Positions 165 to 38,277 of a stretch of 64,000 nt of DNA are shown in pieces. The notes beneath the pieces were generated by a model, which saw only the letters and a program-made list of their open reading frames with translations, ran no database searches and was not told where the DNA came from. The position numbers and the translations under genes were made by a program. The stretch is taken from assembly GCF_005047655.1 (NCBI RefSeq), contig NZ_SUKF01000004.1, forward strand, positions 1 to 64,000, written 5' to 3'. This stretch comes from Sinimarinibacterium arenosum (GTDB taxonomy: Bacteria > Pseudomonadota > Gammaproteobacteria > Nevskiales > Nevskiaceae). How positions within the stretch are numbered: position 1 is the stretch's first letter; every line of letters begins with the position of its first letter.

Positions 165-541
165 CTGGCGAAGTTCTGGACCGAAGGCGAAGGGGCTCTG
201 AATCAACACCTGTTCAAGGTTACCTCCGAGCGCTTCCCGATGTGGTTCGTGAGCCACTGGGTTCATCACCACCTTGAAGAGTTTCAGTCCATCGCCGCAT
301 CGAAGGCGACTACCATGGGGCATATTCAGCGCGGCCATCTCAAAACGGCGATGACTATTTGCCCATCTGGTGAACTGATGGAGAAAATGGACCCATTGAT
401 GGCTCCGCTGGTCGAGCAATCCATTCAAAACGAGCTTGAATCTCGATCGCTCGCGAAACTCCGCGACGCCCTGCTGCCCAAGCTGATCTCCGGGGAACTG
501 CGCGTGAAGGACGCCGAACGCTTCATCGAGGAACGCAGCCC

Positions 542-545
<4 letters not shown>
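165..545 (+). pseudogene. hsdS: Type I restriction specificity subunit HsdS, 3' remnant
   Basis: The open frame from 165 to the TGA at 543-545 encodes the C-terminal target-recognition and conserved region of an HsdS subunit, which gives a type I enzyme its DNA specificity. Visible family features are SKATTMGHIQRGHLK and the closing LRDALLPKLISGELRV, both typical of HsdS C-termini. About 126 residues remain of a usual 400 or more. The 5' part is missing because an IS3-type element ends at 164. Its stop overlaps the start of the next gene as ATGA. Any initiation here would have to use an internal codon such as ATG 240, giving a protein without the first recognition domain. hsdM is presumably to the left. 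Confidence 0.85.
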
Positions 546-2308
<1,763 letters not shown>

Positions 2309-2375
2309 ATTGCCCGAAAGCAAGGCAGTGTTTGGGGCAACGCCACCAGCAAGGATTTTGGGGACACGTCAGACG

Positions 2376-3134
2376 ATGAGCACAGAGATCAATGTGGACT
2401 GGTGCCCAGGCATCCGGGAAGCCTGCTTACATTGGCGCGATGCTCCGATGCTGCAGCAGAGCCTGGAGGCGCTGGAGCAAACGCTGGAACAGGACAACGA
2501 TGCCTGTATCGACTGCGCCAAAGCGATTGTTGAAGTCGTGTGTCAGGTAATCGTCGAGAGCTTTGATAACCCACTGGCGCCGCTCAAACCGAAAGCGGAG
2601 ACGCCCAGCCTCTCAGAATGGCTCACTGCCGCGGTGCGCGCCCTGAAGCTCGGTGATATCCGTGACGAGAAGTTCAAGAAACTGGTCTCCAGCCATCACA
2701 AGCTGTCGACTGCACTCAATGATCTGCGCAACCATGCCGGCACGGCCAGTCACGGCAAGGATCCGTATCTGGAGCGACTGGCGATCCACCACCGCCGCTC
2801 GGCGGTACTGGCGGCTGATGCCATCGTGGCGTTCTTGCACAAGGCCTATCTGGATGCACAACTGGATCCAGCCAGTTCTCGCGAGCCTTGGGAACGGTTT
2901 GCTGAACAAAATGCATTGATCGATGCCCAAATTGGGCTGGCGGTTGACACTGACGATGACGGGCGAACCACCCTACAATTTCTGTTGCCTAGCGGCGACG
3001 TCCTACCGGTTGGCATCGAGGTCAGCCGCTTGCTTTACCAGCTTGACCGTGAGGCCTACGTTGAAGCGTTGAACGCCACGCGCGGTATGGGTTCTGACGA
3101 AGCCGACGACGAGGTGGAGGAGACTGCATCGTGA
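2376..3134 (+). CDS. Abi_C-like (abortive infection C-terminal type) protein
   Basis: 252 aa from ATG 2376; an upstream start at 2310 would add 22 residues that look non-coding. The central part (LNDLRNHAGTASHGKD, then H-rich helices and AADAIVAFL) resembles the abortive infection C-terminal domain (Abi_C, PF14355), a helical module found in phage-defence genes. No catalytic motif is obvious. The C-terminus is acidic. The stop overlaps the next start as GTGA (3131-3134), indicating translational coupling with the RhuM-like gene. It sits within an hsd operon among other defence genes, which supports a defence role, but the activity is unknown. Confidence 0.6.
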   Translation: MSTEINVDWCPGIREACLHWRDAPMLQQSLEALEQTLEQDNDACIDCAKAIVEVVCQVIVESFDNPLAPLKPKAETPSLSEWLTAAVRALKLGDIRDEKFKKLVSSHHKLSTALNDLRNHAGTASHGKDPYLERLAIHHRRSAVLAADAIVAFLHKAYLDAQLDPASSREPWERFAEQNALIDAQIGLAVDTDDDGRTTLQFLLPSGDVLPVGIEVSRLLYQLDREAYVEALNATRGMGSDEADDEVEETAS

Positions 3135-3553
3135 CGGACCTCGTGATCTTCGAGTCCAGCGACCGCCAAGTGGAGGTCCGACTGGAGGGAGAGACGGTCT
3201 GGCTGAGCCAATCGCAGATGGCTGAGCTGTTCGACATATCAGCGGATAACGTCGGTCTCCACCTGAAAAATATTCTTAAAGACAATGAGCTGGACGAGTC
3301 ATCAACTACCGAGGATTTCTCGGTAGTTCGCCAGGAAGCCGCCCGCCAAGTCCGCCGCCGGCTCAAGCACTACAACCTCGACGCCATTATTTCCGTTGGC
3401 TATCGCGTCAGCTCCACCCGCGCCACCCAGTTCCGCATCTGGGCAACCGGCGTGCTGCGCCAGCATCTGGTGGACGGCTACACGCTGAACCAGCGCCGGC
3501 TGCAGGAGCGCGGTGTCGAATTCGAGCAGGCGCGGGAGGTACTGGCAACATGA
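3131..3553 (+). CDS. Short RhuM-family protein (possibly truncated)
   Basis: 140 aa from a GTG start that overlaps the previous stop. The N-terminus (VWLSQSQMAELFDIS, then NVGLHLKNI) is a helix-turn-helix, followed by VVRQEA and YNLDAIISVGYRVSS, both hallmarks of the RhuM/virulence-associated family. RhuM proteins are usually over 300 aa. This copy stops after GVEFEQAREVLAT, exactly where the next gene begins as ATGA, so the C-terminal Fic/DOC-like or unknown half is missing. It may be a functional stand-alone DNA-binding module or a shortened pseudogene. RhuM genes often accompany type I restriction loci. A second degraded copy lies at 5090-5395. Confidence 0.75.
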   Translation: MTDLVIFESSDRQVEVRLEGETVWLSQSQMAELFDISADNVGLHLKNILKDNELDESSTTEDFSVVRQEAARQVRRRLKHYNLDAIISVGYRVSSTRATQFRIWATGVLRQHLVDGYTLNQRRLQERGVEFEQAREVLAT

Positions 3554-5395: not shown

Positions 5396-8300
5396 TGGCT
5401 TTTCTGTCCGAGGCGCAGCTGGAAGCGGCATTGCTGGAACAACTGGCCGGCCTGCGCTACGCCTGCGTCTCGGACGAGCTGATCGGCCCGGACAGCGCAC
5501 AACCGGAGCGCACCGCCCATGACGAAGTGGTGCTGGGCAACCGGCTCGCCCAGGCCGTTGCCGGGCTGAATCCGCATCTGCCCGCCGAGGCGCAGGCCGA
5601 TGCGATCCGTCGCCTGACGCAGGCCGAGCTGCCGAATTTGCTGGAGGAAAACCGCCGTCTGCATCGGCTGCTGATCGAAGGCGCGGATGTGGAGTACTAC
5701 GCGGACGACGGCGTGCTCACGGCCGGCAAGGCCCGGCTGATCGACTTCGACACGCCATCCAACAATGACTGGCTGGCGGTGCAGCAGTTCGTAGTGGTTG
5801 CGGGCCAGGTCAAGCGCCGGCCGGACGTGGTGATCTTCGTCAACGGCCTGCCGCTGGCGGTGATCGAACTGAAGGCCCCCGGCGGCGAAAACGCCACACT
5901 GAACGGGGCCTTCAATCAGCTGCAGACGTACAAACAGCAGATCCCTGCCCTGTTCCGCAGCAATGCGCTGCTGGTGACGTCCGACGGCCTGTCGGCTCGG
6001 GTCGGTTCGCTGTCCGCGGATCACGAGCGCTTCATGCCGTGGCGTACGACCGACGGCCGTTCAATCGAAGCCAAGGGCACTCCGGAGCTGGCGACTTTGA
6101 TCGAGGGCGTGTTCGAACACGGCCGTTTCCTGGATCTGCTGCGTCATTTCACGGTGTTCGGCGAGAGCCCCGGCGGCCTGATCAAGATCATCGCCGGCTA
6201 TCACCAGTTCCACGCGGTCAAAAAGGCGGTGATCTCGACGCTGCGCGCGAGTCGGACGGCCCAGCAAACGGCGATCGCGGAAGACCCAGCGGTGTACGGG
6301 CTGCCCAGCGTCAGGGACCAGCCGCCGGGCGATCACAAGGCCGGGGTGATCTGGCATACGCAGGGCTCGGGCAAGAGTCTGCTGATGGCGTTCTACGCAG
6401 GCCTGCTGGTGTTCGACCCGCGCATGGCCAACCCGACCCTGGTGGTACTGACGGACCGCAATGATCTGGACGACCAGCTGTTCGCCACCTTTGCGATGTG
6501 CAAGGACCTGATCCGGCAGACGCCGGTGCAGGCGGAGGATCGCGAACATCTGCGCAAGCTGCTCAACCGCGCCTCCGGCGGCGTGATCTTCACGACCTTG
6601 CAGAAGTTTTCCCCGGCAGCGGGCGAAACCGGTTTTCCGATGCTGACCGACCGTTCCAATGTGGTGGTCATCGCCGACGAGGCCCACCGCAGCCAGTACG
6701 GCTTCAAGGCCAAGCTTGCCGGCAAGACCGGCGAGATCGCCTACGGTTTCGCCAAGTATCTGCGCGACGCACTGCCCGGTGCGTCCTTCATCGGCTTTAC
6801 CGGCACGCCGATCGAAGCGACCGACGTGAATACGCCGGCGGTGTTCGGCCACTACATCGATATCTACGACATCAGCCGCGCCGTGGAAGACGGCGCGACG
6901 GTGCCGATCTATTACGAGTCCCGGCTCGCCCGCATCGAACTGGACGAGGACGAGAAGCCGCGCATCGATGCCGAGATCGAGGCGTTGCTGGAAGACGAGG
7001 ACGAGCCCAGCGCAGAGCGCGCCAAGCAGAAGTGGTCGACGGTGGAGGCCCTGGTAGGCAGCGACAAGCGCCTCGCATTGGTGGCGAAGGACCTGGTGCA
7101 GCACTTCGAGGACCGGGTGGCGGCGCTGGACGGCAAGGCCATGGTCGTCTGCATGAGCCGACGCATCTGCGTGGCGCTGTACGATCAGATCATTCAGTTG
7201 CGCCCGGATTGGCACAGTGAGGACGACAAGGCCGGCAGCATCAAGATCGTGATGACCGGCGCGGCTTCGGACCCGCCGGCGTGGCAGCAGCACATCGGCG
7301 GCTCGTCCGGGCAACGGGCCCGGCGCGACCTGCTGGCGAAACGGGCGCGCGATCCAAAGGATCCACTCCGGCTGGTGATCGTGCGCGACATGTGGCTGAC
7401 CGGCTTCGACGCGCCGAGCATGCACACGATGTACATCGACAAGCCGATGCGCGGACACGGCCTGATGCAGGCCATCGCGCGCGTCAATCGCGTGTTCCGC
7501 GACAAGCCGGCTGGATTGATCGTGGACTACATCGGCATCGCACAGAACCTCAAGTCCGCGCTGGCGCAGTACTCCAAGCCCGACCAAGACAAGACCGGCA
7601 TCGACGAGGCCGAGGCCGTTGCGGTGCTGCTGGAAAAATATGAAGTCGTCCGTGACATGTTCCACGGCTTCGAGTACCTCCCCGGCCTGAGCGGAACGCC
7701 CGGCCAACGCCTGGCGATGATGGCGGCGGCGATCGAGTGGATACTCGACAAGCAGCAGCAGTGGGCGGCAGCTGAAAAGACGCCTGAGGCCAAGAAGCAG
7801 GCGCAGCGGCGTTTCGCCAACGGCGTTCTGGCTTTGTCCAAGGCCTTCGCCCTGGCGGCCAGCAGCGACGAAGCGCGCGGCATCCGCGAGGAAGTGGGTT
7901 TCTTTCAAGCGATCCGCGCCGCGCTGGTCAAATCGGCTGCGGGCGCCGGCGCAAGCCGTCAGGATCGCGATCTGGCGATCCAGCAGATCGTCAGCCGCGC
8001 GGTAGTTTCGACAGAAATTGTCGATATCCTCGCCGCTGCCGGCATCCAGACGCCGGACATCTCGATTCTCTCCGACGAGTTTCTGCTCGAAGTGCAGCAG
8101 ATGGAGCAGAAGAACCTGGGGCTGGAAGCGCTGCGCAAACTGCTCAACGACAGCATCCGCTCGCGCACGCGAACCAATGTCGTCGAAAGCCGGGCGTTCA
8201 GCGAACGCCTGGAAGACGCCATCTCGCGCTACCACGCCAACGCGATCACCACCGCCGAAGTGCTGCAGGAGCTGATCACGCTGGCGCGGGACATCCGCGC

Positions 8301-29378: not shown

Positions 29379-30005
29379 CTAGAACGAGAAGCGGAAACCG
29401 GCTTTGAACTCGCGCAGATTGACCCTGCTGTGGTTGTCGCCATTGAGGTTGCTGTAGCGATATTCGGTAAAGATGCCGGCCGGCCCCGGCGTCCAGTCGA
29501 AGCCGAGCAGGTACTCACCGCCATCGAGGTTGTCGTCGTCATCGACGTTGATGTAACCGGCCCCCATGTAGGCGCCCAATCCTTCGACGATCGCCTGATC
29601 GTATTCAAAATGGATTCCGTAGCCGTCACGATGGTTTTCTAGTGACAGCACGCTCGAATCCAATTGATGTGTCATGCCAACGTACTCGGCACGCAGCTTG
29701 ACGACACTGCGCGCCGCTGCGATCGGAGCGGCATAGCCAAACCCCGCGCGGTATTCGGTCACATCCAGGTCAACGCCCCGCGCATCCGTCGGAACGTACT
29801 GCGCTTCGAGTTGCAGAAAGGTGCCTTCGATCAGTCCCGCCATGTACCGCAAGCCGCCACCGATGCCGTCAAAGTCCTCGGTATTCCGACCGTCGATCGT
29901 CAGCGCCGCCCCATAGACATCAAACTTGCCGAAAGTTTCATCGGCGGTCGCGGCCGTGCTCACCGTCACCATGGTCACCGCTGCAAGCAATGATCGAGCT
30001 TTCAT
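29379..30005 (-). CDS. Outer-membrane beta-barrel protein
   Basis: 208 aa from ATG 30005, chosen for the AGGAGA site just upstream. The signal peptide ends TAATA. The mature protein is made of alternating hydrophobic and polar strands with aromatic girdles, and ends in FKAGFRFSF, a C-terminal phenylalanine signature for BAM-dependent insertion. It resembles small 8- to 10-stranded porin-like proteins (YfaZ/OprF-like), but I cannot name the family. Monocistronic, convergent with the tRNA pair. Confidence 0.7.
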   Translation of the reverse strand: MKARSLLAAVTMVTVSTAATADETFGKFDVYGAALTIDGRNTEDFDGIGGGLRYMAGLIEGTFLQLEAQYVPTDARGVDLDVTEYRAGFGYAAPIAAARSVVKLRAEYVGMTHQLDSSVLSLENHRDGYGIHFEYDQAIVEGLGAYMGAGYINVDDDDNLDGGEYLLGFDWTPGPAGIFTEYRYSNLNGDNHSRVNLREFKAGFRFSF

Positions 30006-30112
30006 ATGTTCTCCTGGGTCTTCGCAATGCATTCAATTTCGCACGAGCATAGCGCATGCACGTGGAATGCATCCAAGTCGCCGGAGCTCAGCCAGACGCC
30101 ATGCAGAGGGCG

Positions 30113-31423
30113 CTATGCGCCCTGACTGAATACCGGCCAGCTGTCGACAATGCGGCCCTCGGCATAAACCGCAATGTCGCCGAACTCCAGGAAGACGAAT
30201 TCGCTCTGGTGCGGCCGATAAAACACAAAGTCGTCAACGGCCAGCTGCACCTGCGCAGACCCGTTGAGCATTTCCTGGTTGGTGGAGTGCCCCCAGATCG
30301 CGTTGTGCTGCAGCCCCGGAGGCGAAACCGTATCGGCATGCCAGTAGCCACCGTAGGTATAGAACGTCCGGGCGGCATTCGGATCCCAGCTCGAAAACAG
30401 CCCGGTCATCGACTCCAAACCGGGCAGATCGGTTCGATCCAGCGCTTTGAGCACCGGCGTGGCGATATATGCTGCCGGGCGGTGATCGGCCAGCGTCGGC
30501 TTGTCAAAGTCGGTGGGCATCACCAGGCCCGATCCCATCGACACTTCATTGCACGGCGACGCGTCGGTATAAAGCTCGTAGGTCGAGCTGCCACCGGCAT
30601 TGAGCACCAATGCATCTGGATCAAAGTCCGATCCCAGCAGCTCGCGTGCCACATCGACGCACGACGAGTACTGCGCCATCGCCTTATCCAGCGCCTTTTG
30701 CGGCCCACCGAGAATTCCGGGCATTTTCGACGCATGCGCTTCATAACCCATGAAGCCGGAAAATCGCATCGATGGCTCCGCCTTGAGAACCTGAATCACC
30801 TCGGCCACAGCCTCGGCCGTGCGGAATCCGCCACGATGCAGCCCGATGTCGAGCTCAAGGTTCACTCGCATTGGCGCACTGCCTGCCGCGACGTTGGCTC
30901 GCGCCAGATCACGGTATTCCTGCAAGCGCTGCGTCGTGTCGATCAGCCAGTCGACCTGTGCCGCAGGGTCGAACACGGTGGCGTCGGTCAGGTGCTCGAA
31001 GAACCGCGCCGCCGCGCCGATCGGCATCGGCTTGCCGACCAGCAAGCTCGCATCCGGCATCTGCTTTGCCACCAGATTCAGAAAGGGCTGGTGAAACACC
31101 ATCAGACGGTCAGTCCCGGTCAGCTGCCGCACGGTACGGATCAGGTCCAGACTTGGCAGCGATTTAGCAACGATGCGGTAGTGCTTGCTTTTCGGCAGGT
31201 TCGCCTTCAGGCGGCCAATGTTGTGCAGCAAGGACGCACGATCGATGACCAATGTCGGGCGGAACAGGCCGGCGTCGCGCAACGCAGTCTGCATGCGCAG
31301 AAACGCCTCATTGTGCCCTCCCCCAAGTTCACGCGGCTTCAGTGCGACTGCTGCGGCGACCGGGGCTAGCAGTGCAGCGCCGAGTAGCGCACGACGGCGC
31401 CGGTTGACGGGTTGATTAGACAA
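30113..31423 (-). CDS. DSD1-type PLP enzyme (D-threonine aldolase/D-serine dehydratase-like), Tat-exported
   Basis: 436 aa. The N-terminus has NRRRRALLG followed by a hydrophobic run, a Tat-like signal. The alanine-racemase-type barrel starts around residue 55 (PTLVIDRASLLHNI), with the presumed PLP lysine in RIVAKSLPSLD. The C-terminal domain has YRPHQSEFVFL and GRIVDSWPV. In D-serine dehydratase of this fold a zinc is held by an H-x-C pair; here the second residue is serine (H-Q-S). Activity on a D-amino acid or 3-hydroxy amino acid is plausible, but the metal site is altered. It overlaps the FAD oxidase by 8 bp, so they are co-translated. Confidence 0.75.
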   Translation of the reverse strand: MSNQPVNRRRRALLGAALLAPVAAAVALKPRELGGGHNEAFLRMQTALRDAGLFRPTLVIDRASLLHNIGRLKANLPKSKHYRIVAKSLPSLDLIRTVRQLTGTDRLMVFHQPFLNLVAKQMPDASLLVGKPMPIGAAARFFEHLTDATVFDPAAQVDWLIDTTQRLQEYRDLARANVAAGSAPMRVNLELDIGLHRGGFRTAEAVAEVIQVLKAEPSMRFSGFMGYEAHASKMPGILGGPQKALDKAMAQYSSCVDVARELLGSDFDPDALVLNAGGSSTYELYTDASPCNEVSMGSGLVMPTDFDKPTLADHRPAAYIATPVLKALDRTDLPGLESMTGLFSSWDPNAARTFYTYGGYWHADTVSPPGLQHNAIWGHSTNQEMLNGSAQVQLAVDDFVFYRPHQSEFVFLEFGDIAVYAEGRIVDSWPVFSQGA

Positions 31424-32825
31424 GACCGAATACCTTTTTCAGATGCGCGTTGAGCATTCGGCCCTGGGGATCTAGCGCCTCGCGAACCGATTGGAACTGT
31501 TTCCAGTTGGGATAGCGCCGACTCAGCACATCAGCTCCCAGCGTATGCATCTTGCCCCAGTGTGGCCGACCTTCGACCGGCTGATACAGCGCCTCGATAT
31601 CACTAAAGTATGGCAGCGGGTCCTCGGCGAAATACCGATGAACCGCAATCGATCCGGAATGCGTGTGACCGGAAAATGGACTCAGCCATGCGTCGTCGCC
31701 ACGCACGACGCGAACCTCGATCGGGAAAAAGACTTCGCTGTGTTTCGACTCAACGCGCTGGCGGACCTGCTTGAGCGTCGGCAGCAGATGCTCGCGATCA
31801 AAGTGATATTCCATTTCGTTGAAGCGCACCGCCCGGTCCGACGGAAAAATCCGATACCAGACGTCCACCGCCTCTTCCGGTTGATAGTCCGCAGTCGCGC
31901 GGTTCAGCAACCAGCGCCGCGCTCCGGGCCACCAGCCCAGTACGTCACGCAGTTTCTTCATCTGCATGACCGCATCGTTATCCGGCTCGGCCGTGCGCGG
32001 GCGCAGGGGCTCGTCGGTCGGATTGATCGTGATCGCCACTCCGCTATCGCAGTTGGGCAGGAAGTACATCTCGAAACTGTGATTGGCCGCGGCAAGCTCA
32101 TCGAAGCGTTCGATCAGCTGATCCACCGGCTCCAGCCAGACTTTGCGCTTGAGCCGATGGGTCGGCACATTCTGGAACGTCACCTGGGTGATCACGCCCA
32201 GGCTGCCCATGGAAACACGCGCAGCATCGAAGATCTCAGGATGCTGAGTACGACTGCAGTCGAGCACGTCTCCGGATGGTGTCACCAGCCGTAACGCGGT
32301 GATGAACGAATGCAGGGCGCCCAGCTCGGCGCCGGTTCCGTGTGTGCCGGTGCCAATGGCACCACCAATCGACTGCTCGTCGATGTCAGGCATGTTCTGC
32401 AGTGCTTGCCCGACACCGTCGAGGACTTCGCCGATCTGCCCAAGCTTGGTCCCTGCACCAAAACTGGCAGTCATCGCTGCGGCATCGTGCGACAACAGAC
32501 CGGAAAAATGACGTAGCGACACAATGGTGCCATCGGTCGGCACCAGCGGCGTGAACGAATGACCGGCGCCGACCGGGCGGATGGGGCCTGCACCTGTTTT
32601 CAACAGCTCAGCGAGCTCGTCTTCTGACTTGGGTGACGTTCGCGACTGCGGCAGGCAATGCTGGTATCCGGACCAATTCTGCCAGGGAATACGGCGTTTT
32701 CCGTCGGGGCCGACGCTGGTCACCGGTGCTTTCGGCATCTCGGAGGCACCATGGTCGTCGCACGCAGTCAGGCCACCGGCCAAGGCCGCACTGAACGTTG
32801 CGGCCAAAAATTCTCGTCGGTTCAT
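31416..32825 (-). CDS. FAD-linked oxidase, D-arabinono-1,4-lactone oxidase family, Tat lipoprotein
   Basis: 469 aa from ATG 32825, with GGGGA at proper spacing; an ATG at 32837 is less likely. The signal is classic Tat (NRREFLAATFSAALAGG) and ends in LTAC-DD, a lipobox with Asp at +2, which would favour inner-membrane retention. The VAO-type FAD domain has GAGHSFTPL and IGGAIGTGTHGTGAELG; the C-terminal ALO domain ends GKMHTLGADVL. Relatives oxidise sugar lactones or alcohols with FAD, some covalently bound. It lies 8 bp after the cytochrome c gene, which could accept its electrons. Confidence 0.83.
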   Translation of the reverse strand: MNRREFLAATFSAALAGGLTACDDHGASEMPKAPVTSVGPDGKRRIPWQNWSGYQHCLPQSRTSPKSEDELAELLKTGAGPIRPVGAGHSFTPLVPTDGTIVSLRHFSGLLSHDAAAMTASFGAGTKLGQIGEVLDGVGQALQNMPDIDEQSIGGAIGTGTHGTGAELGALHSFITALRLVTPSGDVLDCSRTQHPEIFDAARVSMGSLGVITQVTFQNVPTHRLKRKVWLEPVDQLIERFDELAAANHSFEMYFLPNCDSGVAITINPTDEPLRPRTAEPDNDAVMQMKKLRDVLGWWPGARRWLLNRATADYQPEEAVDVWYRIFPSDRAVRFNEMEYHFDREHLLPTLKQVRQRVESKHSEVFFPIEVRVVRGDDAWLSPFSGHTHSGSIAVHRYFAEDPLPYFSDIEALYQPVEGRPHWGKMHTLGADVLSRRYPNWKQFQSVREALDPQGRMLNAHLKKVFGLV

Positions 32826-32844
32826 TCCGTTCCCCATGAGGCGG

Positions 32845-33207
32845 TCAATCGGCCTTCGACATGAAATCGATCAGCGCCAGAAAATCATCCTCGCTGCAGT
32901 CCATGCAGGACCCCAGCGGCGGCATTCCCTTGTAGCCGTTGATCGTGTGATCGAGCAGTATTTCAGTGCCCTGTGCAAGACGCGCCGCCCAGTCAGCCGG
33001 GCGTCCGGATTGCGGCGCACCACTCAGCGGCGCGGTATGACATGCCTTGCAGGTCTGCTCGTACAGACGCGCGAGATCGGCATCAGCCGGCAGTCGGGCA
33101 ACGAGTGCCGGATCAGCCGCCGCCGGCGCAGAAGGGACAGATTCCTTTCCACAGCCAACCAGCCCCGTTGCCGCAAACATCACCAGTGCAATCAAGCCTT
33201 TTTTCAT
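32845..33207 (-). CDS. Cytochrome c5-like lipoprotein
   Basis: 120 aa from ATG 33207. The signal peptide ends LVGCG, a lipobox with Gly at +2, which allows outer-membrane sorting. One heme site CKACH is followed by PPLGSCMDCSEDDF, with the methionine ligand probably in MPPLGS and two extra cysteines as in cytochrome c5. It is first in a three-gene operon with the FAD oxidase and the DSD1 enzyme, and likely carries electrons from the oxidase to the respiratory chain. Confidence 0.82.
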   Translation of the reverse strand: MKKGLIALVMFAATGLVGCGKESVPSAPAAADPALVARLPADADLARLYEQTCKACHTAPLSGAPQSGRPADWAARLAQGTEILLDHTINGYKGMPPLGSCMDCSEDDFLALIDFMSKAD

Positions 33208-33276
33208 TGTTATCCGCATCGAAGTCATCAGTGGAGTAGTCGCCGTCATGGCCCGACGCCGTCATAACGCAAGTTC

Positions 33277-33291
33277 CATACCGTCGGTATG
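33277..33291. promoter_or_regulatory. Perfect palindrome, probable TetR operator for both divergent operons
   Basis: CATACCG-T-CGGTATG is a perfect 15-bp palindrome in the 192-bp divergent region 33208-33399. A looser dyad (ATCGTAT-GG-ATATGAT) follows at 33301-33316. Sites of the form ATACCG-N-CGGTAT are bound by several TetR regulators, and a TetR gene is encoded in the plus-strand operon. The rest of the divergent region holds no gene. Confidence 0.6.
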
Positions 33292-33399
33292 CTTTTTGCG
33301 ATCGTATGGATATGATCCGTCGCACGTCAACGCTCCGTGCCCGCATGGGGCTGACTTTCCTACTCCAAGCTCGATGACCCGCCGCTATTCTCCCGCCTG

Positions 33400-33777
33400 A
33401 TGATCACCTGGCTCACCCAACGGCAATGGGAATCCCTGTTTGCCATCGCTGAACTCGCATCCGTACCGTCGCTTGCGTGGATGCTGGTTGGCGCCGCACT
33501 GATGGTGGCGCGCATCGGATCCGGGCGCGGCAGCAGATTGCTCCGTCTCGTTTCCACTTTGGCGCTGATGGCACTGACACTGCTGCTCATGTCGTGCTGG
33601 CTGAGTGCCGATCTGACGGCAGACCCTGTACTTGCACAGCATCTGCGTCGGATCGCATTCCAACTCGGATTCAATGTATTGATCGGTGCAGGTATCGCCG
33701 CCGGGTCTTTGCTGCTAATGCTGACTGCAGGCATGCGGCTGTGGGGCGAACGCCCTCATGAGAAGACGGCATGCTGA
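33400..33777 (+). CDS. Small four-helix membrane protein
   Basis: 125 aa. Four hydrophobic segments are visible (about residues 12-35, 45-68, 75-82 weak, and 88-110), e.g. LVSTLALMALTLLLMSCWL and VLIGAGIAAGSLLLML. No known family is recognised. It leads the plus-strand operon and overlaps the next gene by 7 bp. It could be a membrane partner or quinone-linked subunit for the periplasmic enzymes, but this is inference. Confidence 0.6.
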   Translation: MITWLTQRQWESLFAIAELASVPSLAWMLVGAALMVARIGSGRGSRLLRLVSTLALMALTLLLMSCWLSADLTADPVLAQHLRRIAFQLGFNVLIGAGIAAGSLLLMLTAGMRLWGERPHEKTAC

Positions 33778-35093
33778 GCCGCCGACAGCTGCTGGGGTGG
33801 TCAGCCGCCGGCGCAGCCGCAGCGGCGGCGCGCAGCTTTTCGTCCGGCTCAGCCATGAGCGTCAGGAACGCGTCTTGGTCCGAGGTCCGCGCCGGTTTTG
33901 CGTTTGCATCGACGTCGAATGCGCCGATCCCGATGAACGCAGCCAATCTGTGTCCGGCGCTGAGCATGGTGACCGACCGCGTTCACGCGGCCGCCCAGCG
34001 CCTCGATCTGGACGCCTCGTTTCATCATCGCCTGCTGTATCAGCAGACAGAACGTGCCGCTCTGGGGCCGATGCTGGAACGACACCTCGGCATCGCGCAC
34101 AAAGAAGATGTGGCACTGGTCCGTAACACCAGCGAAGCGAATTCGATTGTCGTGAATGGACTGCCCCTCACGCGCGATGATGAAGTTCTTCTCTGGAGCC
34201 AGAATCATCACACCAACAACCGCAGCTGGGCCTACCGCGCACAACGTGACGGCTTCGCCATCCGCGTGGTTGATCTGCCGACCGATCCAGTCGACGACAC
34301 TGCACTGATCGCGCCGTTCCTCAGCGTGCTGACACCCAAGACCCGCGTCGTCAGCTTCAGCCACATCTCCAATACCAGCGGCTTGCGCTTGCCAGCCGCT
34401 GCGCTGTGCGCAGCGATACGCGAAGTTCGCCCCGACATCTACATTCATGTCGATGGCGCACAAAGCTGGGGCGCCGCCGCGCTCAACCTGGCGGCAATGG
34501 ACTGCGACAGCTATGCCGCCAGCGCTCACAAATGGCTCGCCGGTCCGCGCGAACTGGGCATTCTCTATGTGCGCCCCGCGTGGGCGGCACGCATGCACGC
34601 CAACACCATCGGTTACGACTATCGATTTGACTACCCGGAAGCCGACCTTCCACAGACCGCGGCGCGATTCGAGTGCCTGGGACAACGCAACGACGCCGCA
34701 CTCAGCGGCTTGAACGCGGCGCTGCAATTCCATCTGGATCTCGGCCCGGAACGAATCGAGGCACGCATCTCCGAACTCGGCCGCCAACTGCGCGAGAAAC
34801 TGCGCCAGATCGGCCTGACGGTGTTGACGCCGTCAAACGAGCGCTACGCCCTGGGAGTCACTGTCGTTGATGTCGGCCCAAGCGACGCAATGAGCGCCTT
34901 TCGTTCGCTCTACGAAACACGACAGATTTCGGCCGCTTTCATTCACGAACATCGCATTGTCGGCGACATCGAACGCATTGCCGCTGATCAGCCCCTGCCG
35001 CTGTATCTGCGGCTGTGCCCGCACATTTGCAATGACGAAGCGGATATTGAGCGCGCCACAACCGCGGTGGCGCAGATCGCAGGCCGCGCATGA
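33771..35093 (+). CDS. Class V aminotransferase-fold PLP enzyme (isopenicillin-N-epimerase-like), Tat-exported
   Basis: 440 aa. The signal has LSRRQLLGW followed by an alanine-rich hydrophobic run, a Tat type. The fold-type I domain shows LVRNTSEANSIVVNGL, the aspartate-bearing IHVDGAQSWGA and the PLP lysine in SAHKWLAGPRELG. These fit the CefD/cysteine-desulfurase-like class V group. Export with PLP already bound explains Tat use. The gene overlaps its neighbours by 7 and 4 bp. Its partners suggest a periplasmic epimerase or beta-lyase acting on an imported amino compound; the substrate is unknown. Confidence 0.78.
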   Translation: MLSRRQLLGWSAAGAAAAAARSFSSGSAMSVRNASWSEVRAGFAFASTSNAPIPMNAANLCPALSMVTDRVHAAAQRLDLDASFHHRLLYQQTERAALGPMLERHLGIAHKEDVALVRNTSEANSIVVNGLPLTRDDEVLLWSQNHHTNNRSWAYRAQRDGFAIRVVDLPTDPVDDTALIAPFLSVLTPKTRVVSFSHISNTSGLRLPAAALCAAIREVRPDIYIHVDGAQSWGAAALNLAAMDCDSYAASAHKWLAGPRELGILYVRPAWAARMHANTIGYDYRFDYPEADLPQTAARFECLGQRNDAALSGLNAALQFHLDLGPERIEARISELGRQLREKLRQIGLTVLTPSNERYALGVTVVDVGPSDAMSAFRSLYETRQISAAFIHEHRIVGDIERIAADQPLPLYLRLCPHICNDEADIERATTAVAQIAGRA

Positions 35094-35710
35094 CTACAGC
35101 AACACGCCGCCCGTCGCGTCGGGGCCAGCAAACCCGTGAGCGCATGCTCGAAGTCGCCGAGGCACTCTTTGTCGAAGAGGGGTATCAGGGCGTCAGCATC
35201 GATCGCATTGTGCAGCAAGCCGGCGTCACCAAAGGCGCCTTTTACCACCATTTCAACGACAAGCTTTCTGCGTTCCTGGCCGTGTTCGAACGAATCGACC
35301 GCGAAATGTCCGATCTGGTGATGGAAGCTGCGCTCACCGGCACAACCCCGCTCGACATGATTCGCCGCGGCATGCGGCGCAATTTTGAATTGTGCATCCA
35401 GCCACGCTACGGCCGTCTGGTGTACATCGAGGGACCCGCAGCGCTCGGCTGGCATGAGTGGCTGCGTATCGACTCAAAGCTTGCCGGCGCGATCATCAAC
35501 ACCGGGCTGCAAGCCGGCAGAGACAGCGGCGAGCTGCGCTCTCCGTCGCTGAGCGCGCTGTCAACATTGCTGCTTGGCGCAATTCTGCAGGCCAACGTCG
35601 CAATTGCGGGCGCCGATAACGCCGCAGCCACGTGCGCCGAGCTGGCCACGGAAATGGATCACCTTTTGCAGTCCCTTCACCACCAGAGTTTCAAAGAGAA
35701 GACATCATGA
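35090..35710 (+). CDS. TetR-family regulator inside the operon
   Basis: 206 aa. The helix-turn-helix is VEEGYQGVSIDRIVQQAG then TKGAFYHHFNDKLSAF. It overlaps the aminotransferase gene (ATGA) and the receptor gene (ATGA), so its level follows that of the operon. It most likely represses the divergent promoters through the palindrome at 33277-33291 and responds to the substrate or product of the pathway. Confidence 0.85.
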   Translation: MTTATRRPSRRGQQTRERMLEVAEALFVEEGYQGVSIDRIVQQAGVTKGAFYHHFNDKLSAFLAVFERIDREMSDLVMEAALTGTTPLDMIRRGMRRNFELCIQPRYGRLVYIEGPAALGWHEWLRIDSKLAGAIINTGLQAGRDSGELRSPSLSALSTLLLGAILQANVAIAGADNAAATCAELATEMDHLLQSLHHQSFKEKTS

Positions 35711-38277
35711 ATCCTCGGCAGCTGCTGATTGCCACTGCATGCCTGTTTGCAACTGCAGTGTTCGCAAAGGACGACGATCTGGACTTCTTGTTCGAAGACA
35801 CTGCACCCGAGCAAACTTCTCAAGCGCCTGCAGACGCGCCACCTGCAGAACCGCAACCCGAGGCTGGAACACAACCGTCAGCGGATGAACCACAGCCTGA
35901 GACGAGCGCAGCAAGCGAGACTGACGAGCCGATCATCCCCGACGTTGTGCCCGTGGCCCCGTTGCGCGAAGAGCCGCAACCCACGGTGGTCGCTGCGCCG
36001 CCGCGCCGGCAGATTGAAGAAATCGTGGTCACCGCGCAGAAGACTGAACAGTCGCTGCAGGACGTGCCACTGTCAGTGACCGCACTGAGCGGCGATTTCA
36101 TCAAGAATACCGGCGCTGCGGATCTGACCGACGTCGCCGCCTATGTCCCGAACGTCCGCGTCGATACCGACGACCCGGGCTCGCCGCAGGTATTTATCCG
36201 CGGCTTTGGCACCAATACATTCAATCCGAGTTTTGAAAGTTCGGTCGGCTTCGTTCAGGACGAAGTCTTTTTTGGACGCGGCGGCTACTTCACCGAATCG
36301 ATGTTCGACATCGATCGCATCGAGGTTCTGCGCGGTCCACAGGGAACCTTGTTCGGCAAAAACACCATCGCTGGCGTATTCAACGTCACCAGTGCTGGCC
36401 CCACCGAGGAGTTCTCCGGTGATGCCCGTTACACCACGGGATCGTATGGGGACCGCCGCATTGAGGTCGGAATGGGCGGCATGCTCACCGACTGGGCCGG
36501 AATCCGGGTATCTATGCTTGACCGCAAGTCCGATGGGCAGCTGTACAACACCTATCTGAATCGTGACGAAGAGAAGCTGGATCAGCGCGCTGAACGCCTG
36601 AAGCTGAAGCTTTACGCATCAGACTCCGTCGACATGGAGCTGACCGTGGTCGACTCGGACACCAGCATCGCGTTCTGGCCGTATCAGCTGTACAAACTTG
36701 ACGCCGGCAGTCTCGCCTACCTGCGCACATTCGATCCCGAAGTTGAAGATCAGCCCAATGATCTGACCTCCATGGATACGGTCGGTTATCTGAACAAAGG
36801 CTCGACGACGGCAGGCCTCAAGACCAGCTGGGCGATGGGTGATCTAGGCGGCATTCAGGACTTCGAATCCGTTCTTGTAGTCGGCATCTCGCAGTTCTAC
36901 ATCGATCAGCTGAATGATCTGGATGTATCTCCTTCGGATATCGCCCGCCTCGACAGCCACGAGGATCACGATCAGCGCACGGTGGAACTGCGCTTCACCG
37001 GACATAGCGACGGCTTGTTCGGCCTAGGCGATCGGCTCGAGTTCGTCAGTGGCCTGTACTATTTCGACTCCGACTACGCCATCAACGCAAAGGTCATTGC
37101 CGGACAGGATCTTGGCTCCTACGCGGTTACCGGTGATGCACTAGAGTTGATTTCCGGCACCAGCTTCGGCGGACTGTTTGGCGGGATCAGCCTTCCGGGC
37201 TTGCCACTGCTCGGAACCATTACCTCGCCACTGGTCGGAGACGACTACTACGGCTTCGATTACACCCAGGGCATCACTGCCTACGCCGCCTTTGGCCAAT
37301 TCACTTGGTATCTGAATGACCATTGGGCCATCACACCAGGCATTCGTCTCAATCGCGAGAGCAAGGATGTGTTTGCTCAAGGCGGTGGTCACTGCCGAAC
37401 CGAAGCGCTGGAGACCTGCATCATGCAGGCACTGGTGCAGGGCAATCCGTATGACTATCCCAACTTGCGACGCAATGAGTCCGACATTTCGCCCAAATTC
37501 GTACTGCAGTACTACTGGAATGACGACCTGAACTTCTACACGAGCTACGCGCGTGGCTACAAGAGTGGTGGCTTCAACGCGATCTCATTCACCGGCGAGG
37601 ATATCGAGTACGAACCTGAAACCGCCCAGACTTACGAGCTGGGCATGAAGGGGAAATTCTTCGACAGCACGCTGAGTCTGAATACAACCCTGTACCGCAC
37701 GGAGTTTGACAACCTGCAGGTCCTTGCCTTCAACGGCTTCTTCTTCGATGTCAGCAACGCCGCATCTGCCTACTCCCAAGGCCTCGAAGCCGACTTCATG
37801 TGGCTGACTCCATTTGAACCTCTGAGCATCAGCGGCTCGCTGGGCATCCTCGACGCCCGCTACAAAGGCTACGACAGCGCGCCGGCTCCATACGGCTCAG
37901 CGCAGGATACGCAGGACTTGAGTGGCAAGCGCATCGCATTCGCACCGAGCAAGACCGCGACACTGACGCCAACGCTGTCATTGCCGCTGTTCGCAGGTCT
38001 GGTGACGCAGCTGAGCGTCGACGTGCTGTATCAGGGCGACCAGTACACAGACACCGACCTCGACCCGAATACCTACGTCGATGATTACACCATGTATTCG
38101 GCGCGCATCAGCCTCAGCGACGAACAAGGCTTGTGGGCGGTGACGTTCGGGGGCAGCAATCTGACTGATCGCCGCGTTCTGAATCAGGTCACCGACGCGA
38201 CATTCTTCCCCGGCACCTACTTCGCACAACTGGGCGGCGGACGCCAGTTGTTCGGCAGCATTTCAATCAACTGGTAA
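35707..38277 (+). CDS. TonB-dependent outer-membrane receptor
   Basis: 856 aa from ATG 35707 (overlapping the TetR stop). A signal peptide ends VFA. Residues 21-102 form an acidic, Pro/Glu/Ala-rich linker. The plug starts with EEIVVTAQKTEQSLQDVP and includes VFIRGFG and VLRGPQGTLFGKNTIAGVFN. A barrel of about 650 residues follows and ends in a C-terminal aromatic strand (GSISINW). The type is that of the iron-siderophore-like or TonB receptors abundant in Sphingomonads and Nevskiales, where many import organic nutrients. Here it should bring the substrate to the Tat-exported enzymes. No Fur box was seen upstream. Confidence 0.88.
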   Translation: MNPRQLLIATACLFATAVFAKDDDLDFLFEDTAPEQTSQAPADAPPAEPQPEAGTQPSADEPQPETSAASETDEPIIPDVVPVAPLREEPQPTVVAAPPRRQIEEIVVTAQKTEQSLQDVPLSVTALSGDFIKNTGAADLTDVAAYVPNVRVDTDDPGSPQVFIRGFGTNTFNPSFESSVGFVQDEVFFGRGGYFTESMFDIDRIEVLRGPQGTLFGKNTIAGVFNVTSAGPTEEFSGDARYTTGSYGDRRIEVGMGGMLTDWAGIRVSMLDRKSDGQLYNTYLNRDEEKLDQRAERLKLKLYASDSVDMELTVVDSDTSIAFWPYQLYKLDAGSLAYLRTFDPEVEDQPNDLTSMDTVGYLNKGSTTAGLKTSWAMGDLGGIQDFESVLVVGISQFYIDQLNDLDVSPSDIARLDSHEDHDQRTVELRFTGHSDGLFGLGDRLEFVSGLYYFDSDYAINAKVIAGQDLGSYAVTGDALELISGTSFGGLFGGISLPGLPLLGTITSPLVGDDYYGFDYTQGITAYAAFGQFTWYLNDHWAITPGIRLNRESKDVFAQGGGHCRTEALETCIMQALVQGNPYDYPNLRRNESDISPKFVLQYYWNDDLNFYTSYARGYKSGGFNAISFTGEDIEYEPETAQTYELGMKGKFFDSTLSLNTTLYRTEFDNLQVLAFNGFFFDVSNAASAYSQGLEADFMWLTPFEPLSISGSLGILDARYKGYDSAPAPYGSAQDTQDLSGKRIAFAPSKTATLTPTLSLPLFAGLVTQLSVDVLYQGDQYTDTDLDPNTYVDDYTMYSARISLSDEQGLWAVTFGGSNLTDRRVLNQVTDATFFPGTYFAQLGGGRQLFGSISINW

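Follow-up and report, generated by a model that had tools for sequence, protein, structure and literature searches.

A divergent sphBCD-type cluster with its own TonB receptor and TetR regulator in Sinimarinibacterium arenosum

A core homologous to sphBCD

The closest described relative of the gene cluster presented here is the SphBCD system of Pseudomonas aeruginosa (PA5328-PA5326), which consists of a cytochrome lipoprotein, a flavin oxidase exported by the twin-arginine translocation (Tat) pathway and an aldolase-like pyridoxal 5'-phosphate (PLP) enzyme. Genes sphB and sphC are required for sphingosine metabolism in P. aeruginosa, and how SphBCD degrades sphingosine, by what mechanism and to what direct product, is an open question (PMC11893366), hence the value of a comparison. 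Our cluster lies at 30113..38277 of a stretch of 64,000 bases (hereafter the window), which represents bases 1-64000 of contig 19 of the 4.54-Mb Sinimarinibacterium arenosum genome. Open reading frame (ORF) calling placed seven ORFs there in two divergent operons and, together with family matches and a reading of the sequence, bore out the genes, export signals and coordinates given in an earlier note on this DNA. The features are:

30113..31423, minus strand: SphD-type PLP enzyme, 436 aa, fold III, D-threonine aldolase/D-serine dehydratase subgroup, twin-arginine N-terminus
31416..32837, minus strand: SphC-type flavin oxidase, 473 aa, twin-arginine signal and lipobox
32845..33249, minus strand: SphB-type monohaem cytochrome c lipoprotein, 58% identical to P. 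aeruginosa SphB over 104 aa
33277..33291, no strand: predicted TetR operator CATACCGTCGGTATG, common to both divergent operons
33400..33777, plus strand: small membrane protein, 125 aa, three hydrophobic regions
33771..35093, plus strand: class V PLP enzyme (PvdN/SufS-like), 440 aa, twin-arginine signal, SAHKW lysine; accessory module
35090..35710, plus strand: TetR regulator, TetR_N and TetR_C_41
35707..38277, plus strand: TonB-dependent receptor, plug and barrel; frame open from 35632

The core, 30113-33249, is the already known sphBCD (PMC3900636, PMC11893366), since it encodes homologues of all three P. aeruginosa proteins in the same order and on one strand, with identities of 58, 42 and 44% to SphB, SphC and SphD, respectively; the suggestion that the arrangement had not been described is thus not supported for the core. 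The P. aeruginosa record reads cytochrome c5, D-arabinono-1,4-lactone oxidase, DSD1-family PLP enzyme, transporter and SphR. P. aeruginosa SphC scored 376 bits on the window oxidase and 231 on the own-genome paralogue (contig C12; only stretches L001-L003 compared), and the transporter adjoining sphD had no match in the window genome in a search that had no positive control and is uninformative. Unlike Pseudomonas, which has SphR and the SphA porin, the window has a TetR regulator and a TonB receptor under one predicted operator; its SphC bears a lipobox, its SphD falls in a sister clade and a class V module is inserted in the cluster. Overall, the cluster is a genuine, conserved system of predicted periplasmic redox and PLP enzymes, homologous to sphBCD, and a variant in that receptor and regulator are its own. 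On balance, it is probably a divergent, TonB-fed version of SphBCD that degrades sphingoid bases (long-chain 2-amino-1,3-diols, e.g., sphingosine) in the periplasm. Among the substrates guessed at in the earlier note, the amino alcohol agrees with this reading. No description was found, in the parts of the openly licensed literature covered, of the variant, its common operator, the operons with a ceramidase gene, the export signal of SphD or the Gln-x-Glu pair presented below.

Family profile searches matched the 30113-31423 product to Ala_racemase_N (3.7e-19), the cytochrome to Cytochrome_CBB3 (2.1e-12) and the class V enzyme to Aminotran_5 (7.6e-37), the last with a TAT_signal match under its cut-off. 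The flavin oxidase contains the FAD_binding_4 and ALO domains and passes the curated cut-off of TIGR01679 (bact_FAD_ox; 504.9 vs. 292 bits), and the small membrane protein gave no family match in the same searches. Genes overlap by a few bases at four junctions (PLP enzyme/oxidase, membrane protein/class V, class V/TetR, TetR/receptor), and a gap of 7 bases separates oxidase and cytochrome; the overlapping ends argue for two operons, cytochrome-oxidase-PLP enzyme leftwards and membrane protein-class V-TetR-receptor rightwards.

Concerning export, the signals were read directly off the sequence. The SphD-type enzyme has the twin-arginine NRRRRALLGAALLAP, the oxidase MNRREFLAATFSAALAGGLTAC (twin arginine and lipobox) and the class V enzyme the twin-arginine MLSRRQLLGWSAAGAAAA; the cytochrome harbors a GLVGC lipobox and CxxCH. 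A SphC with a Tat signal and a SphB that is a c-type cytochrome lipoprotein are thus both present, as in P. aeruginosa. Alignment A2 (SphC) comprises the window and 50/57 loci sequences, the others being near-duplicates or set aside; by a simple rule, 42/43 of its proteins outside Bacteroidota have twin-arginine N-termini. In alignment A1 (SphD; the window and 66/75 loci sequences passing a length rule, the others near-duplicates or set aside), Arg-Arg within the first 34 residues and a hydrophobic run occur in 54/67, a count that includes L118 and L120, where the Arg pair stands behind the hydrophobic run and the signals are not clearly Tat. These signals support the earlier proposal that the chemistry would be periplasmic.

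The Tat signal of P. aeruginosa SphC has been validated (PMC6085387), and PA5326 (SphD) is not named in the main text of that paper. P. aeruginosa SphD is annotated at 6983-8191 of L143 (NZ_CP070468.1), apparently with a late start: an in-frame GTG at 6914 (SphD 6914-8191), seven bases behind AAAGGAG, yields the twin-arginine MNRRKFMFAGLGAGALLAGAAAW, which suggests that SphD may be exported in P. aeruginosa too. In the same record SphC is annotated from 5572, and its published signal begins at 5506. The 'plasmid' itself (p1B17416) looks like chromosomal DNA, its sphBCD being flanked by gmk, rph, pyrE, argB, dut and coaBC. Eight Bacteroidota loci (L110, L125, L128, L132, L134, L135, L136, L140) encode SphC and SphD without signal peptides, have no cytochrome gene and bear Gly at the SphC oxygen gate.

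Conservation, SphD types and ceramidase neighbors

Two samples were compared, 58 family genomes (G handles) and a non-random set of 80 named loci (L handles), the best among 154. Several genomes occur in both sets (L063/G043, L064/G007, L066/G006, L068/G039, L069/G045), so the samples are not independent, and L113/L114 represent one strain. At E 1e-20 or better, a sphD-type PLP gene was found in 28/58 family genomes, and in 25 of these 28 the oxidase gene lies within 300 bp of it, above chance; the exceptions are G051 and G052, with the oxidase on other contigs, and G002, with no oxidase at E 1e-40. Among the named loci, 65/80 have the oxidase gene no more than 3 kb from the PLP gene and on its strand, and a cytochrome is near in 52 of these 65 (Pseudomonadota 49/53, Myxococcota 2/2, one without phylum 1/1, Bacteroidota 0/9). 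The four Pseudomonadota without it are Colwelliaceae L097, L099 and L102, and L109, whose record starts inside the oxidase gene. As for a replacement of SphC where it is missing, the upstream genes of 8/15 such loci gave an aldehyde dehydrogenase at L118, members of five unrelated families and two genes without family, and the idea was dropped.

A SphD tree of 86 rows (supports from SH-like approximate likelihood ratio tests, SH-aLRT, only; 14/22 other-type family genomes included) places the window protein in a clade of 11 rows from Nevskiales, Salinisphaerales and Spongiibacteraceae (97% SH-aLRT), where its nearest named relatives are a Nevskiales metagenome-assembled genome, Hydrocarboniphaga and Sinimarinibacterium. 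P. aeruginosa SphD belongs to another clade of 13 rows (100% SH-aLRT), which holds 12 of the 14 included other-type family genomes. Window-type SphD (64-100% identity) is present in 6 family genomes and other types (42-49%) in 22; G024 additionally has a 102-residue SphD match at 55%, and 0/58 genomes carry both types. Two genomes, G039 (S. flocculans) and G045 (Fontimonas thermophila), are assigned to the genus of the window genome.

The Pfam ceramidase PF04734 is present in 37/58 family genomes. It lies within 0.6 kb of sphCD in 5/28 (G030, G047, G049, G050 and G054, three genera; the G054 match is a fragment), with 0.04 expected under uniform placement; in G047, G049 and G050, cytochrome, oxidase, PLP enzyme and ceramidase follow each other on one strand. 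At L109 (uncultured gammaproteobacterium, 508-3183) the ceramidase sits between oxidase and PLP gene, and at L086 after the PLP gene on the opposite strand. In six further genomes (G004:C27, G005:C6, G006:C2, G007:C173, G008:C112, G028:C115) a SphC-like oxidase gene stands with no PLP gene next to it and a ceramidase gene is at most 3.5 kb away. In the window genome the single strong ceramidase match lies on contig 22 and shares 56% identity with the L109 ceramidase over 830 residues. Ceramidase adjacency is an independent hint at the substrate, with all five adjacent family genomes in the sister clade. As the fourth gene of the sphBCD operon, ceramidase was seen in L170, L171 and L172. These ceramidase findings draw on query proteins from L150, L151, L109 and L086.

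Receptor, predicted operator and class V accessory module

In 9/80 named loci, all in the window SphD clade, the receptor (51-85% identity) lies next to the operon in divergent orientation, and a remote receptor (24-28%) is codirectional in 5 more. A palindrome, CATAC-N5-GTATG, was spotted by eye in three intergenic regions and is hence a post hoc motif; its only exact site in the 4.54-Mb genome is at 33277-33291. The 58 family genomes have 21 sites in 16 of them (reversed control pattern, 15 sites), three of which fall in the divergent sphBCD intergenic region, in G000, G039 and G043; within the regions retrieved, the same three family genomes are the ones that carry this TetR at 55% or higher identity. 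Oceanococcus sp. (TetR 51%) also has the palindrome in its divergent promoter, and it occupies the equivalent place in G043, S. flocculans and Oceanococcus sp. It was not found in the region of L044, L047, L065 or L070, which have the receptor without this TetR. In the four lineages the five central bases differ in all and the half-sites are identical, accounting for 10 of 19 invariant alignment columns. With one mismatch allowed, a single site in the window would be no surprise (0.63 expected), and the case for an operator is made by position and co-occurrence with TetR. The palindrome is therefore predicted to be a TetR operator serving both operons, in agreement with the tie between receptor and enzymes drawn in the earlier note. 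Promoter and terminator scans gave nothing beyond shuffle level. At L144 a remote TetR-type gene also lies beside an other-type sphBCD locus, and in Ruegeria a TetR/AcrR gene precedes the cytochrome gene.

The class V gene and its membrane protein are a separate accessory module. At E 1e-60 the enzyme was found in 6/85 genomes of the order, with the small membrane protein upstream in 6/6 and the twin-arginine signal and SAHKW lysine kept in 6/6. The pair adjoins the PLP/oxidase genes in 2/6 only, the window genome and G043 (class V proteins 56% identical, gene order kept); in G038, G046, G051 and G052 it sits on a contig other than that of sphD, with unrelated neighbors. One of the 80 named loci has a class V match (L063, the same genome as G043), and G001 has a remote one (36%, partial) 4.7 kb from sphD. 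A conserved seven-gene system was thus rejected, as the pair is separable from the core, and the idea of the two PLP folds as a conserved pair is not supported. Standing behind the common operator in the window genome and G043, the class V enzyme may belong to the regulon there. Its nearest solved relative by sequence is PvdN, Tat-exported and acting in pyoverdine maturation, with which it shares the Tat signal and PLP lysine; it differs in scoring 119.6 bits, against a curated PvdN cut-off of 650.

Beyond the cluster, a beta-barrel outer-membrane protein gene (29379-30032, minus strand) lies 80 bp behind sphD on the same strand. It was considered as a SphA analogue and rejected, with no match among 100 related loci at E 1e-3.

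Proposed route and rival explanations

SphD shares a fold III barrel with PLP lysine (Lys87) with D-threonine aldolase, BhcC and D-serine dehydratase, and differs from them in its export signal, in identity (about 20%) and in having Gln406-x-Glu408 for the metal pair. Both residues are invariant in A1 (67/67) and align with His355 and Asp357 of BhcC, which we take to be metal ligands; PDB titles (H351A; C353A in a metal-free form) agree with such a ligand pair. In SphC, His93 within GxGHSF is the predicted covalent holder of flavin adenine dinucleotide (FAD) and Pro150 is at the oxygen-gate position, where Pro is found in 41/51 aligned proteins (A2), the window oxidase among them, Ala in P. 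aeruginosa and Gly in 8 Bacteroidota. SphC belongs to the fold family of GULO, ALO, GalDH and alditol oxidase, with His where GULO and ALO hold covalent FAD and GalDH has Leu, and it differs from these enzymes in its gate residue and cytochrome c partner gene.

We propose that the TonB receptor would carry the lipid, or a complex of it, over the outer membrane, and that SphC, as a membrane-anchored flavoprotein, would oxidise C1 and pass electrons to cytochrome SphB, an electron transfer that the earlier note had also suggested and that is supported. P. aeruginosa genetics support a joint SphC/SphB step (PMC11893366). In natural sphingosine (2S,3R), conversion of C1 to a carboxyl would make C2 formally R, giving a D-beta-hydroxy amino acid, i.e., the kind of substrate used by D-threonine aldolases and D-serine dehydratases, which SphD, with its D-threonine-aldolase fold, most likely cleaves. 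The TetR repressor at 33277-33291 would silence both operons until freed by a substrate-related ligand, and the class V accessory would have come to sit upstream of TetR in the lineage of the window genome and G043. In the fullest form of this proposal, set wholly in the periplasm, sphingoid bases of perhaps bacterial or algal origin, and not sphingosine, would enter through the TonB receptor and be oxidised to a D-beta-hydroxy amino acid; an exported, perhaps metal-independent D-threonine aldolase relative would cut the oxidised lipid; a second exported PLP enzyme would handle the amino product in this lineage, with one TetR operator over all; the cell would feed on the lipids or disarm them before the cytoplasm; and Bacteroidota would do both steps in the cytoplasm, oxygen replacing cytochrome c. 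That all these parts hold together is quite unlikely.

Several results weigh against degradation of sphingoid bases by a TonB-fed SphBCD. Under the conditions used, P. aeruginosa could do without sphD, the product of the SphB/SphC step was not identified, direct action of SphB/SphC on sphingosine is left open by the authors, and C. crescentus sphBC gave no significant complementation (PMC11893366). The window SphD is outside the Pseudomonas-type clade and all five genomes with an adjoining ceramidase carry the other SphD type, so the substrate of the window type may differ. Genome-level co-occurrence with ceramidase is weak (19/28 with sphD vs. 12/30 without, p 0.04, at a cut of E ~1e-28 and uncorrected for kinship), and the SphD metal pair is altered, being neither the His-x-Asp nor the His-x-Cys of D-threonine aldolase/DSD1. 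At 15/80 named loci there is no oxidase within 3 kb, and other neighbors are mostly unrelated (212/217 neighbor proteins in two halves; 25/106 and 25/98 families viewed): no family exceeded five members in either half, the first having thiolase 4 and phospholipase A1 2, the second aldehyde dehydrogenase 3 and ceramidase 1. Fifteen family genomes, not all of which have sphD, carry the best match of the receptor away from such an operon; 14 of these 15 regions were examined, and in none of the 14 are enzyme, cytochrome, class V or ceramidase genes nearby. The receptor is not pathway-specific; a receptor-specific neighborhood was likewise discarded, those 14 regions offering none save remote TetR matches in three. 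Neither is TetR peculiar to the window type, as a remote TetR (32-37%, DNA-binding part) stands beside sphBCD in L049, L051, L052, L055, L075, L076, L079, L136, L140 and L141.

Given its own SphD clade, receptor and regulator, the window-type clade could have changed substrate, applying SphBCD-like oxidation and PLP cleavage to another receptor-delivered amino alcohol or beta-hydroxy amino compound. Ceramidase is beside sphD in 0/6 window-type genomes, yet 5/6 carry it elsewhere; genomes with both types are lacking (6 and 22 of 58), which also fits like-for-like replacement, and the catalytic residues are common to both SphD types. We regard such a change as unlikely. It is rather unlikely that SphD is not an aldolase and instead is a dehydratase that removes the 3-hydroxyl, with ammonia and a 2-oxo acid as products, or a racemase acting at C2: the scores of D-serine dehydratase and 3-hydroxyaspartate dehydratase differ from those of the aldolases by about 1-3 Z units, and the altered metal pair would suit this, but the top sequence and fold matches are aldolases, by small margins. 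The overlap of the class V gene with TetR behind the common operator, in the same place in G043, would be explained if all seven genes made one pathway with the class V enzyme doing a needed step, e.g., on the amino product. This is improbable, as 4/6 genomes have the class V pair on another contig with unrelated neighbors and 79/80 named sphD loci lack a class V match in the DNA examined. Finally, the annotation 'D-arabinono-1,4-lactone oxidase', the ALO/TIGR01679 matches and the structures of xylitol oxidase and L-galactono-lactone dehydrogenase might point to a sugar-lactone or alditol oxidase system, a highly improbable one that leaves the PLP partner, the ceramidase neighbors and the Pseudomonas genetics unexplained.

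The comparison leads to testable expectations: SphD should be periplasmic as well, its substrate should be the D-amino acid obtained when natural sphingosine is oxidised at C1, and a cytoplasmic form that uses oxygen is expected in Bacteroidota. Apart from the ceramidase in the same operon in several genomes, the comparison offers Sinimarinibacterium and Hydrocarboniphaga as environmental models, and the predicted operator as a handle for finding the natural inducer.

Among minor observations, a few species have an aldehyde dehydrogenase or AMP-binding ligase next to sphD (L116:9312-10709, L118:6384-7940, L132:5429-7108 and L147:7208-8878), which fits a long-chain aldehyde or acid product. In Mycobacterium riyadhense (L146:5815-9576), an 'amino acid deaminase/aldolase', an M28 peptidase and a lactone-oxidase-type flavoprotein are encoded in a row, and this trio is perhaps a remote counterpart of SphD-SphC.

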